From: Actinomycetota bacterium
Lineage (GTDB): Bacteria; Actinomycetota; Actinomycetes; S36-B12; CAIYMF01
Assembly: GCA_947455705.1 (NCBI GenBank)
Contig: CANGPO010000005.1
Coordinates: forward strand, 1-64,000
Length of the DNA: 64,000 bases
Direction: 5' to 3'
How positions within the stretch are numbered: position 1 is the first letter of the stretch; each line of letters begins with the position of its first letter. A program made the position numbers and the translations under genes. Shown here in pieces: positions 52,327 through 56,855 of the stretch. The notes under the pieces were generated by a model. It was given only the letters and a program-made list of their open reading frames with translations, was not told the origin of the DNA and made no database searches.

Positions 52327-53322
52327 ATGTCCCACGCCGGTGACGATTCGTCGCATCCACTTGGACCGCCGAGCGGTTTGGAGATTCCGCGCTATGCAGG
52401 CCCGGATACCTTCGCCCGCCTACCTCGCTTGGACCAGGTAGATCACGCGGCCGTTGCGATCATGGGTGTTGCCTTCGACTCAGGCGTGTCGTACCGACCA
52501 GGTGCGCGATTTGGTCCCAGTGGTATTCGTGCGGGCTCGAAACTTCTTCGTCCGTATCACCCTTTCTTGGACGTGAGTCCGTGGGGAGTGCACCAAGTCG
52601 CCGATGCGGGAGATATCGGGCCCAATCCATTCGATTTGATGGCCGCGGTTTCTGAGGTTGAGGTTGCAGCGCGTGGCTTGTTGACCAAGGCTGATCGGCT
52701 CATCACGATCGGCGGTGATCACACGATCGCACTTCCCCTCCTGCGCGTGATGGCCGAGCGGCACGGACCCATCGCCCTTGTGCACTTCGACGCGCACCTC
52801 GATACGTGGGATACGTACTTTGGTGCGCCCTATACCCATGGGACGCCGTTCCGGCGTGCCGTCGAAGAAGGTCTGCTGGATTTGGACGTCTCAGCGCACG
52901 TCGGTATCCGTGGTCCGCTATACGACCGCAAGGACTTGGTCGACGATAAGGCGTTGGGTTTTGCCATCGTCAGCACCATGGATGTTGCGCGTCGCGGAGT
53001 GGACGAGGCGATCGATCGGGTGCGGGAGCGGGTTGGCGATCGCCCTGTCTATGTCTCCATTGATATCGATGTTCTTGATCCGGCACATGCGCCGGGAACG
53101 GGCACCCCTGAACCTGGTGGTCTCACCACACGCGAGTTGCAGCTCATCCTTCGGGGGTTTTCCGATCTGCATATCGTCGGTGCCGATGTCGTTGAGGTTG
53201 CCCCGGCCTACGACCATGCCGAACTGACGACTATTGCGGCCGCAAACACTGTGTACGAACTCATGGGCCTCATCGCCTTGGAAGCCCTGTCGACACCGAA
53301 CGATCACGGAGCGGATTCATGA
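52327..53322 (+). CDS. Agmatinase/ureohydrolase family protein
   Basis: [45 protein letters not shown] metal-binding motifs. Confidence 0.93.
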
Positions 53323-54737
53323 CGGTGAGCCCCGGTGCGATTTCGGCGACGGCATCGGCAGTGGCACGTCGTGAGGTGTCGTGCGTCGACACGGTGACTG
53401 AAAGCCTTAACCGGATTGAACAGTTCGATGGTCAGCTTGGCTCGGTGATTGCTCTGCGCGCTGAGTTAGCTCTGCAGGAAGCCTCAGCCCTCGACGCGGT
53501 TCTTGCCGAGACTGGCGAGGTTGTTGGCCCACTGCATGGTGTGCCTGTCCTTGTGAAAGATCTCGAGAACGTTGCCGGGATGCAGACGCGCAAGGGCTCG
53601 AAGCTGTTTCAGGACGTCGCACCTGCGCAAGTAGACGAAGTCGTGCCGGCTCTCCTTCGTGCGGCCGGGGCAATCATCGTCGGTAAGACCAACCTCCCCG
53701 AGTTTGCGACGGAAGGATTCACGGACAATCTGCTTGACGGGCCGACCAAGAATCCATGGGATCTGCGTTACTCACCAGGCGGATCAAGTGGTGGTAGCGG
53801 TGCAGCGATAGCCGCCGGTTTGGCACCCATCGCAACCGGAACCGATGGTGGTGGCTCGGTGCGCATTCCCGCTGGTCTCTGTGGCCTGCTTGGCATCAAG
53901 CCGACGGTTGGCGCGATTGGTCGCTGGCCAGCACCGGATTGGCTGGACCTTTCAACATATGGTCCGTTCGCAACAACTGCCCAAGATCTCGGCTTGCTCT
54001 ATTCATTGATGACGGGCGTTGTTCCAGGTGATCCGGCCTCGGCGCCGTCATTCGGTCAGCCCGAAACCGTCTATCGACGCATCGTCGTAACTGAGCGGAC
54101 GTCACCTTGGGGTCCGCTTCCCGAGCCGGTGCGGTCGTCGTTTCTCGATGCGGCACAACGGTTTGCGGCCATGCTTGGGCTACCTGCGGAGGTGATTGAT
54201 GGGCAGGGCACGTTTGAAACTGTCGGTGATCCTGACGTGGATTGGTTCACGATGTGCACTGCAGAACATGTTGCAGCCCTGGGCCGCGAGGTAGTGATTG
54301 CCAATCTTTCGATCATGCACCCCGCCGCGGCGTCCTTTATGGAAGAAGGACTCCGCGTTGGTATTGATGACTATCTGGGAACGCGTCACCGTCGCCCGAA
54401 ATACACGCGGATCATTGATGAATTACTGGGTCAAGACACGTTGCTCCTCACGCCGATCCTGGGTGTCGAGGCAATTACGTTTGACGGTCGGCTGCCGAAC
54501 AGTGACTCGGTAGACATGCTGCCACCAGAGGTTTACTCAACCGCTTTTCAAAACATCACAGGGCATCCAGCTATCTCATTACCGGCTGGGCTTTATCCGA
54601 GCGGACTTCCGTTCGGATTGCAGGTAACAGCGCCGCGCTGGCATGACCACCAACTCATTTCGCTGAGTCGGCGCTGGGAAGATGCGTACCCCTGGCAGCG
54701 AGTTGCGCCGGGATATACGGAGTTTTCGGTTCACTGA
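53319..54737 (+). CDS. Amidase (amidase signature family)
   Basis: [54 protein letters not shown]. Confidence 0.95.
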
Positions 54738-54780
54738 AAGTGCTTGTGGTGCAGAGGCTTTCAGCTTGAGAACGTACAGG

Positions 54781-54859
54781 TTATCCACCACTTTTATACA
54801 CAGGGCTGTGTACGAATGAGGCTTTGAGCGCGATCACCTGTGTATGAACCTGTGGGTAA
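54781..54859. promoter_or_regulatory. Cluster of DnaA-box-like 9-mers
   Basis: TTATCCACC (54781), TTATACACA (54794), TGTGTATGA (54839, rc TCATACACA), TGTGGGTAA (54851, rc TTACCCACA). Confidence 0.45.
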
Positions 54860-54890
54860 AGATTCTTCGAAAAATAGTTTGGATTTCCCC

Positions 54891-54919
54891 TTGCATGCGT
54901 GATTGCGAGGGCGTAGAAA
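54891..54919 (+). promoter_or_regulatory. Candidate housekeeping promoter TTGCAT-N17-TAGAAA
   Basis: Hexamers at 54891-54896 and 54914-54919, exact 17-bp spacing. Confidence 0.5.
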
Positions 54920-54924
54920 TCTCT

Positions 54925-55212
54925 TACGTCCTCGCGGACGACAGGGAAGTTGGGGCAACTCGGCGGAACAGTCGGAAACAGGATGGCTCGAAGGAGAACG
55001 GCGAATCCGTCCTCGGTGGGAAACCGCAGAGGCTGTGCGTGTCAGTACAGGGAAACGCAAGGACCAACGGGCGGCCAGCCTCTGAGGTAGCGCATCGGTT
55101 TCCGGTGCGGGACCCAAGAGGGCGGTGACACCCGCAGACCAGCAAGAGCGACTTGTCGAACTTGACTGATGGCTACAGTGAGGCCCCTCGATCTCATACA
55201 TCGAGGGGCCTC
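54925..55212 (+). ncRNA. Putative structured non-coding RNA (~290 nt)
   Basis: No convincing ORF; long-range 9-bp pairing CAGAGGCTG (55027)/CAGCCTCTG (55076); AGGATGG (54980)/CCGTCCT (55007); hairpin CGCATCGG-TTT-CCGGTGCG (55091-55109); bounded by promoter-like and terminator-like elements. Confidence 0.5.
55180..55212 (+). terminator. Perfect 12-bp hairpin, intrinsic-terminator-like
   Basis: GAGGCCCCTCGA-TCTCATACA-TCGAGGGGCCTC followed by TCATTTCATT. Confidence 0.75.
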
Positions 55213-55220
55213 ATTTCATT

Positions 55221-55266
55221 GTGCCGTAACGGCTTTAGTCCTCTGGTATTTCGATACCTACGGCAC
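55221..55266 (+). promoter_or_regulatory. Structured element upstream of purine permease
   Basis: GTGCCGTA/TACGGCAC 8-bp arms enclosing GGTAT-TTCG-ATACC hairpin; alternative GCCG-TAA-CGGC pairing. Confidence 0.45.
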
Positions 55267-55379: not shown

Positions 55380-56855
55380 ATGGCCGTCGACACACCCCCT
55401 GAAGTCGCCACATCTTCGTGGGACCGTTGGTTTGAACTCACCAAGCGAGGATCCAACAACAATCGCGAGATTCGTGGTGGATTCGTAACCTTCTTCACGA
55501 TGGCGTACATCGTCATTTTGAACCCGCTCATCATTGGTACGGCTAAAGACGTGAACGGCCAATTCATCGGTGGCACTACCGATATTGGCAAGGCCATCGT
55601 GATGGTCACGGCTGCCACCGCTCTCGTCGCCGGTCTGATGACGATTGCGATGGGTGCGATTGGACGATTCCCAGTCGCTCTGGCTGCGGGTCTTGGTCTT
55701 AACGGTTACGTGGCGTTCACGTTGGCACCGCATATGTCGTGGGCAGACGCCATGGGACTGATCGTCCTTGAGGGTTTGATCATCGCAGCGCTGGTTCTGA
55801 CGGGTTTCCGAACTGCGGTCTTCAACGCAGTGCCCGAGCAGCTCAAGTACGCGATCGGTGTCGGAATCGGCCTTTTCATCACAATCATCGGCCTTGTCGA
55901 CGCCGGGATCGTGCGACCAGGTGTTCCGCTGATTTCGTTTGGTACCTATGGAGCACTGCGTGGCTGGCCAACGTTCGTTTTCGTATTCGGCTTACTGCTG
56001 ACCTCGGTTCTAGTGGCTCGCCATACGAAGGGGGCAATCCTCATCGGGATCGTGGCCTCCACAATCCTTTCGATGATTATCGAGGCGGTCGCACACGTTG
56101 GTCCGCACATTGGTGCAGACGGAAAGGTCGCCAATGACAACGGCTGGAGCTTGAACGTTCCGTCGTGGCCGTCCCAAGTGGTCTCAAATCCAGATCTTGG
56201 CCTGCTCGGCAAGTTCAGTCTCTTTGGCGGGTTTCAGGCAATCGGGTTTGTCGCAGCGTCACTGGCGGTCTTCTCCCTTCTTCTCAGCGACTTCTTCGAC
56301 ACGATGGGTACGGTCTTCGGCCTGGCTCATGAGGGTGAAATCCTCAACGAGGACGGGACTGTTCCGCATTTCGAAGCAGTCCTTATGGTCGATTCACTCG
56401 CGGCTGCCGCTGGTGGTGCGGCAAGTGTGTCGAGTAATACGAGCTACATCGAATCCGCATCTGGCGTTGGTGAAGGTGCCCGTACTGGTATCGCATCATT
56501 GGTAACTGGTGCGCTCTTCCTGGTTGCGATGTTCTTCTCGCCACTTGTGTCGATCGTTCCCCATGAGGCCGCAACGCCTGCCCTGGTGATCGTCGGCTTC
56601 CTGATGATGACGCAGATTCGTCATATCGATTTCACTGACTATGAGATTGGTATTCCGGCCTTCTTGACGCTCGCGTTGATGCCGTTCACCTACTCGATTT
56701 CCAACGGCATCGGTGCTGGCTTCATCACCTACGTTGTCATCAAACTGTTCAAGGGCAAGGCCAAAGAAGTCCATCCGTTGTTGTGGGTAATCGCGGCCGC
56801 ATTCGTCATCTACTTCGCATCCGACCCGATATCGCAGTTACTGCACATCGGGTAG
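55380..56855 (+). CDS. NCS2 family (AzgA-like) adenine/guanine permease
   Basis: GGFVTFFTMAYIVILNPLIIG; GLGLNGYVAFTLAP; LLSDFFDTMGTVFGLAHE; SSNTSYIESASGVGEGARTG. Confidence 0.93.
   Translation: MAVDTPPEVATSSWDRWFELTKRGSNNNREIRGGFVTFFTMAYIVILNPLIIGTAKDVNGQFIGGTTDIGKAIVMVTAATALVAGLMTIAMGAIGRFPVALAAGLGLNGYVAFTLAPHMSWADAMGLIVLEGLIIAALVLTGFRTAVFNAVPEQLKYAIGVGIGLFITIIGLVDAGIVRPGVPLISFGTYGALRGWPTFVFVFGLLLTSVLVARHTKGAILIGIVASTILSMIIEAVAHVGPHIGADGKVANDNGWSLNVPSWPSQVVSNPDLGLLGKFSLFGGFQAIGFVAASLAVFSLLLSDFFDTMGTVFGLAHEGEILNEDGTVPHFEAVLMVDSLAAAAGGAASVSSNTSYIESASGVGEGARTGIASLVTGALFLVAMFFSPLVSIVPHEAATPALVIVGFLMMTQIRHIDFTDYEIGIPAFLTLALMPFTYSISNGIGAGFITYVVIKLFKGKAKEVHPLLWVIAAAFVIYFASDPISQLLHIG

Follow-up and report, generated by a model that had tools for sequence, protein, structure and literature searches.

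The window analyzed here (a single stretch of 64 kb) contains a 642-bp gap, read directly from the sequence, between an amidase gene (stop at 54737) and an NCS2 permease gene (start at 55380). The original prediction had placed in this gap, given there as ~640 bp, a dedicated structured RNA of ~290 nt with a promoter of its own (TTGCAT-N17-TAGAAA) and a 3′ hairpin. The promoter is present as quoted, and the RNA was borne out by conservation, covariation and its occurrence at several unrelated loci; an RNA gene in the gap, beyond chance, is confirmed (Table 1). The 5′ end of the RNA was placed from the promoter and is uncertain by a few bases. The promoter is missing from a sigma-70 consensus scan (score under threshold) and the 3′ hairpin from an intrinsic-terminator scan (its U tract, CATTTCATT, is weak), and since the scans list neither, the case for both rests on conservation. 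In relatives, an esterase gene directly precedes the RNA; in the window, agmatinase-family and amidase genes (52327–54737) are inserted between the two.

Among 60 relatives searched, several genomes of the same genus contained the region, and blastn widened the conserved stretch to 54779–55226 in at least seven congeneric genomes, with promoter, body and hairpin all conserved. Eight homologues from the one genus (type A) yielded a multibranched consensus fold, in which the number of pairs changed on both sides was not reached by any of 500 shuffles and 94% of cells pair (35 to 48% in each slid control), although a few outer consensus pairs are not kept in the window sequence. Pairing in the consensus is far above both shuffles and slid controls; covariation among homologues had been proposed in the original prediction as a check. 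The fold energy of the transcript is −132.4 kcal/mol (z score taken against 200 dinucleotide shuffles). A conserved small protein gene, which the prediction had named among the outcomes that would refute it, was rejected because no reading frame is kept across the conserved region: frames are interrupted differently among homologues, indels are not multiples of three, and ORF matches are patchy with in-frame stops.

All of the complementary segments quoted in the original prediction are present, but two of the proposed pairings (the 9-bp CAGAGGCTG/CAGCCTCTG and AGGATGG/CCGTCCT) are not conserved. The former is specific to the window; CAGAGG instead pairs with CCTCGGTGG in a conserved GAAA hairpin. 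The predicted CGTCC-TCGC-GGACG hairpin fared better, being formable with covariation in all eight sequences, as did the one with a TTT loop, which is kept in relatives; an alternative, longer-range pairing (54927–54930 with 54982–54985) is likewise supported by the consensus and competes for bases of the former. The perfect terminal hairpin of 12 bp exists, yet its length was understated: 13 perfect Watson-Crick pairs (55180–55192 with 55200–55212) are extended by a T-A and a G-U pair around the DNA loop CTCATAC.

Table 1. Positions of the features at the amidase–NCS2 locus, numbered within the window
Feature	Position	Strand	Evidence
Five DnaA-box-like sites	54781–54859	.	Window's only cluster of ≥3 within 100 bp; array conserved in congeners
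DnaA-box-like sites TTATCCACC; TTATACACA	54781–54789; 54794–54802	+	
DnaA-box-like sites TCGTACACA; TCATACACA; TTACCCACA	54807–54815; 54839–54847; 54851–54859	−	
Promoter: −35 TTGCAT (54891–54896), 17-nt spacer, −10 TAGAAA(T) (54914–54919)	54891–54919	+	Read directly; TTG and TA positions align and are conserved in homologues
Structured non-coding RNA, ~289 nt	54926–55214	+	78-pair consensus; 31 double-change pairs versus shuffled mean of 9.8; z = −4.5; no conserved reading frame
5′ hairpin CGTCC-TCGC-GGACG	54927–54940	+	Can form in 8/8 homologues; T-A/C-G covariation
GGAGAACGG, near-invariant subfamily motif	54993–55001	+	GGAGAACG in 8/8 type A homologues; GGAKAACGG in three distant f22 genomes
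Hairpin CCTCGGTGG-GAAA-CCGCAGAGG, GNRA tetraloop	55011–55032	+	Consensus helix 6; double changes in 6/8 pairs
Hairpin CGCATCGG-TTT-CCGGTGCG	55091–55109	+	Consensus helix 9; 93.5% of cells paired; kept in relatives
3′ hairpin, 15 pairs, loop CUCAUAC (55193–55199); presumed terminator and recognition module	55178–55214	+	98.2% of cells paired

Related RNAs and their 3′ hairpin

The 3′ hairpin recurs at non-syntenic loci within the same genomes. Of the 166 genomes in the order, 72 contain its pattern (reversed control, ~1 match), as do 45 of 396 genomes of the class; in GTDB contigs it matches 97 stretches, almost all of them from Actinomycetota (Phycicoccus, Knoellia and Pedococcus included). 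A few contig titles name other phyla; at least one of these contigs matches a genome of the order, and others seem to be binning errors or chance matches. With a covariance model of the hairpin (E ≤ 0.01), the count rose to 155 of 396 class genomes, an upper bound because some of the weaker matches are unrelated gene terminators, as were all three Streptomyces matches examined. The hairpin was absent from the viral contigs searched, and a viral origin was rejected.

Through the loop and hairpin, ~125 related RNAs were identified across Actinomycetes (“Candidatus Nanopelagicales,” Knoellia, Phycicoccus, Pedococcus and others). Family-wide, the hairpin stem covaries (87 double-change cells versus 20 when shuffled) under a loop that is nearly always CTCATAC, with CTCATGC in about four RNAs, CCCTTAC in the distant f22 RNAs and TTCATAC in the further copy that the window's genome carries; the constancy of the loop is in part a matter of ascertainment, loci having been found via the hairpin, but the allowed mismatches fall in the stem as compensating pairs. 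Nearly all loci share one promoter shape, and the body that precedes their 3′ hairpin abounds in GNRA hairpins (2.5 per 300 nt; control tetraloops, 0.23). When promoter and 3′ hairpin were left out, blastn of the bodies still joined 110 of 123 RNAs, and shuffles gave zero edges. A clade linked to tgt has a covarying fold of its own (80 pairs; 190 double-change cells versus 60 shuffled). Type A RNAs, such as that of the window, are ~290 nt long; type B RNAs reach ~430 to 560 nt with repeated modules, and members from Dermatophilaceae carry tandem hairpins. An RNA family extending over the class Actinomycetes, with the window RNA as a member, is well supported.

Several members deserve separate mention. 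The covariance model recovered f22, a group of large genomes whose RNAs have the loop CCCTTAC and share with the window RNA both the GGAGAACGG motif and the array upstream, as well as families with other stems yet the loop CTCATAC. It also found the second copy in the window's genome, a larger type B paralogue (L266, G000:C8:56058–56092, − strand) whose promoter is preceded by four DnaA-box-like sites. In L234 (G172:C166), tandem units of ~40 nt each form a GNRA-capped hairpin (GGCCGAGCGATCGG). Six tgt-linked loci (L063, L080, L117, L139, L141 and L149) share a second conserved body hairpin loop, CCCCG-AGUGCUGG-CGGGG; ahead of their promoters, the place of the DnaA boxes is taken by GTGA/TGTGAC repeats, which are conserved and similar to MtrA sites (GTCACAGCG). 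Five loci (L277, L302, L224, L227 and L228) encode RNAs of only ~75 to 150 nt with the same promoter shape, ending in the CTCATAC hairpin, which suggests a 3′ module common to different RNAs. At two others (L273 and L299) the hairpin directly follows a long ORF (adenosine-deaminase-like by eye) and is the end of an mRNA, not of an RNA gene.

DnaA-box-like sites upstream of the promoter

The original prediction overlooked the spread of the family, its nearly invariant loop and an array of five DnaA-box-like sites (TTRTNCACA with ≤1 mismatch; most sites differ from the consensus by one base). The sites lie within 80 bp, and the array ends ~30 bp before the −35 element. Clustering of boxes by the promoter is above chance in the family: at least three boxes occurred in the 150 bp before the promoter at 28 of 81 family loci (0 of 1,936 control stretches), and at 13 of the 21 loci found later by the covariance model (0 of 222 controls). 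A large clade, that linked to tgt, has the RNA without DnaA boxes, and DnaA control is therefore not universal.

The dnaA locus of the window's genome contains exact TTATCCACA and TTGTCCACA sites, the latter being the high-affinity DnaA box of Streptomyces and Mycobacterium (PMC4285127). Beside dnaA, on a contig other than the window's, DnaA boxes cluster at what is likely the oriC region (L154, G000:C10, 660–872), exact copies of TTATCCACA among them. Control of the RNA's transcription by DnaA is likely, but another regulator with a similar site may act there instead.

Dense arrays apparently outside the origin are also a feature of datA and DARS in Escherichia coli, and Streptomyces carries clusters of high-affinity DnaA boxes away from oriC, to which the array of the window can be likened. 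Unlike datA/DARS-type clusters, the array described here directly adjoins the promoter of a structured RNA that is conserved, and we found no description of such a combination.

Comparison with known RNAs

Searches against Rfam 15, likewise among the checks proposed originally, returned no match in the window at the gathering threshold, in the RNA region at thresholds as permissive as E = 10, or in relatives. The same was true of the 6S RNA model (RF00013; none at the gathering threshold in the window, none to E = 10 in the RNA region and none in relatives), and no description of such an RNA was found in the open papers searched. RNase P RNA, of which the original prediction had seen no landmark, was excluded at the locus, the genome's copy being on another contig (G000:C17:38746–39142, 310 bits). 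As for tRNA and tmRNA, a tRNA-Met (CAU) called by ARAGORN on the hairpin of one relative (L008) is an artefact of the anticodon-like loop, and anticodon mimicry is weakened by the f22 loop CCCUUAC. An internal pseudoknot of the loop was also rejected: its complement is not kept, and depletion of the complement is unexceptional.

The suggestion of an Ms1- or 6S-like RNA was not supported. Ms1 is defined by its HAD hydrolase/Ssd neighborhood and by a long hairpin bearing a bubble (PMC9130861, PMC4191392). Ssd was located in 30 relatives; in the 14 loci that were read, the gap next to the HAD gene was 0 to ~200 bp where that gene could be placed (placement relied on crude ORF calls, and several loci were too ambiguous). 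In loci where the gene was placed, this gap is too short for Ms1. The window RNA is absent from the HAD/Ssd locus and occupies the amidase–NCS2 gap (esterase–NCS2 in relatives); Ms1 was rejected by locus and by the multibranched fold. The window RNA is like Ms1 (Mycobacterium; scr3559 in Streptomyces; MTS2823) in being an actinobacterial, structured, intergenic RNA of ~230 to 300 nt that has a promoter of its own and a presumed terminator. However, it differs in locus, in its GNRA-rich multibranched fold (Ms1 forms a long hairpin with a bubble at its center), and in its conserved 3′ loop, upstream DnaA boxes and lack of an Rfam match.

6S RNA shares the stand-alone gene and similar layout, but the window consensus has no mimic of an open promoter and matches no 6S model. 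Compared by size and locus, CoRP of Corynebacterium is also a long, structured actinobacterial RNA (516 nt, close to type B in length); its homologues were found only within Corynebacterium, at a tRNA-Glu locus, and the window locus is not flanked by a tRNA gene. In some members (type B, Dermatophilaceae, L234), hairpins repeat in modular fashion, as they do in protein-sponge RNAs of the CsrB/CsrC type; the loops of the latter are GGA, those of the family GNRA or UUCG. The family is thus new to the RNA library and the open papers searched, and resembles Ms1, 6S and CoRP in layout only. Its kind, the stand-alone structured bacterial RNA, is itself known, and we claim no mechanism of a new type.

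Role of the RNA and alternative readings

By computation, the locus combines a conserved promoter, a covarying GNRA-rich fold, a near-fixed loop on a covarying stem and, in many though not all relatives, an upstream DnaA-box-like array. The reading we favor, and consider rather probable from these sequence features, is that the gene stands alone and encodes an RNA of a new family that would act in trans by way of its 3′ loop, with DnaA controlling its transcription. DnaA would bind the array and set transcription of the RNA, whose level would then be tied to DnaA activity and hence to the replication cycle. By analogy with known RNAs, it might work in trans as a ribonucleoprotein scaffold, and the 3′ loop would be where a partner shared by all family members, either a protein or an RNA, makes contact.

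Next in standing, though unlikely, is an RNA that would bind RNA polymerase as a stand-in for Ms1, 6S or CoRP, abundant and linked to stationary phase or growth, and sequestering the core enzyme. Size and layout (own promoter, ~300 nt, structured) are the same, the length of CoRP is near that of type B, and the gap at the Ms1 locus, short in those Nanopelagicales loci for which the HAD gene was located, is consistent with it, as is the prediction, by the authors of a RIP-seq study, that lineages without Ms1 contain unknown polymerase-binding RNAs (PMC11077062). However, the fold is multibranched, has no long hairpin like an open promoter and matches nothing in Rfam, and Knoellia, Pedococcus and Phycicoccus, which are listed with Ms1 candidates (PMC9130861), carry the family RNA as well.

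We consider two further explanations improbable, each to a similar degree. In the first, the locus would matter as DNA, as a cluster that titrates or recycles DnaA in the manner of datA, DARS or the Streptomyces cluster; the RNA would then be incidental, or its transcription a means of remodeling DnaA. Dense DnaA-box arrays do occur where no replication-initiation gene is seen, and dnaA of the window's genome is on a different contig; against this, the body, fold and 3′ loop of the RNA are under strong constraint of their own, and the RNA occurs without boxes in the tgt-linked clade. In the second, the RNA would regulate in antisense fashion, its loop CUCAUAC forming a U-turn (YUNR) and pairing with regions around start codons (GUAUGAG). 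The YUNR motif CUCA is part of the near-invariant loop, AUG is part of the loop's complement, and the recurrent variants CUCAUGC and UUCAUAC retain the U33-like and purine-37-like positions; however, depletion of the complement within the RNAs is unexceptional among permuted words, and the distant f22 loops (CCCUUAC) have no U-turn. That the RNA is a leader regulating the NCS2 permease gene in cis, as a riboswitch or attenuator, is very improbable. In favor, the permease lies on the same strand with its start 165 nt downstream and a strong hairpin between, and synteny is kept in four congeners; but esterase–NCS2 flanks were found in several congeners only, NCS2 was not found adjoining the RNA in others, and paralogues sit beside unrelated genes, so that the varying downstream gene and the recurrence of the RNA at unrelated loci speak against an NCS2 riboswitch.

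Returning to a trans-acting RNA under DnaA control, its extension to the whole family is more tentative. It is possible, if doubtful, that a class-wide family of Actinomycetes RNAs absent from Rfam has its transcription set by DnaA and acts with a common partner via the shared CUCAUAC-loop module. A structured RNA family present in cultured Knoellia, Phycicoccus and Pedococcus as well as in abundant uncultured freshwater lineages seems to be missing from the public RNA library. The DnaA-box-like arrays suggest a direct tie between replication initiation and a non-coding RNA, and the 3′ loop, near-fixed on a stem that covaries freely, points to an RNA-binding partner held in common; all three ideas are testable in laboratory strains. 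The bacteria that carry the RNA, to our knowledge, mostly lack Hfq. If the class-wide reading is true, the family would give the replication cycle an RNA arm, and its hairpin would be a new kind of universal 3′ module of small RNAs in bacteria mostly without that chaperone.
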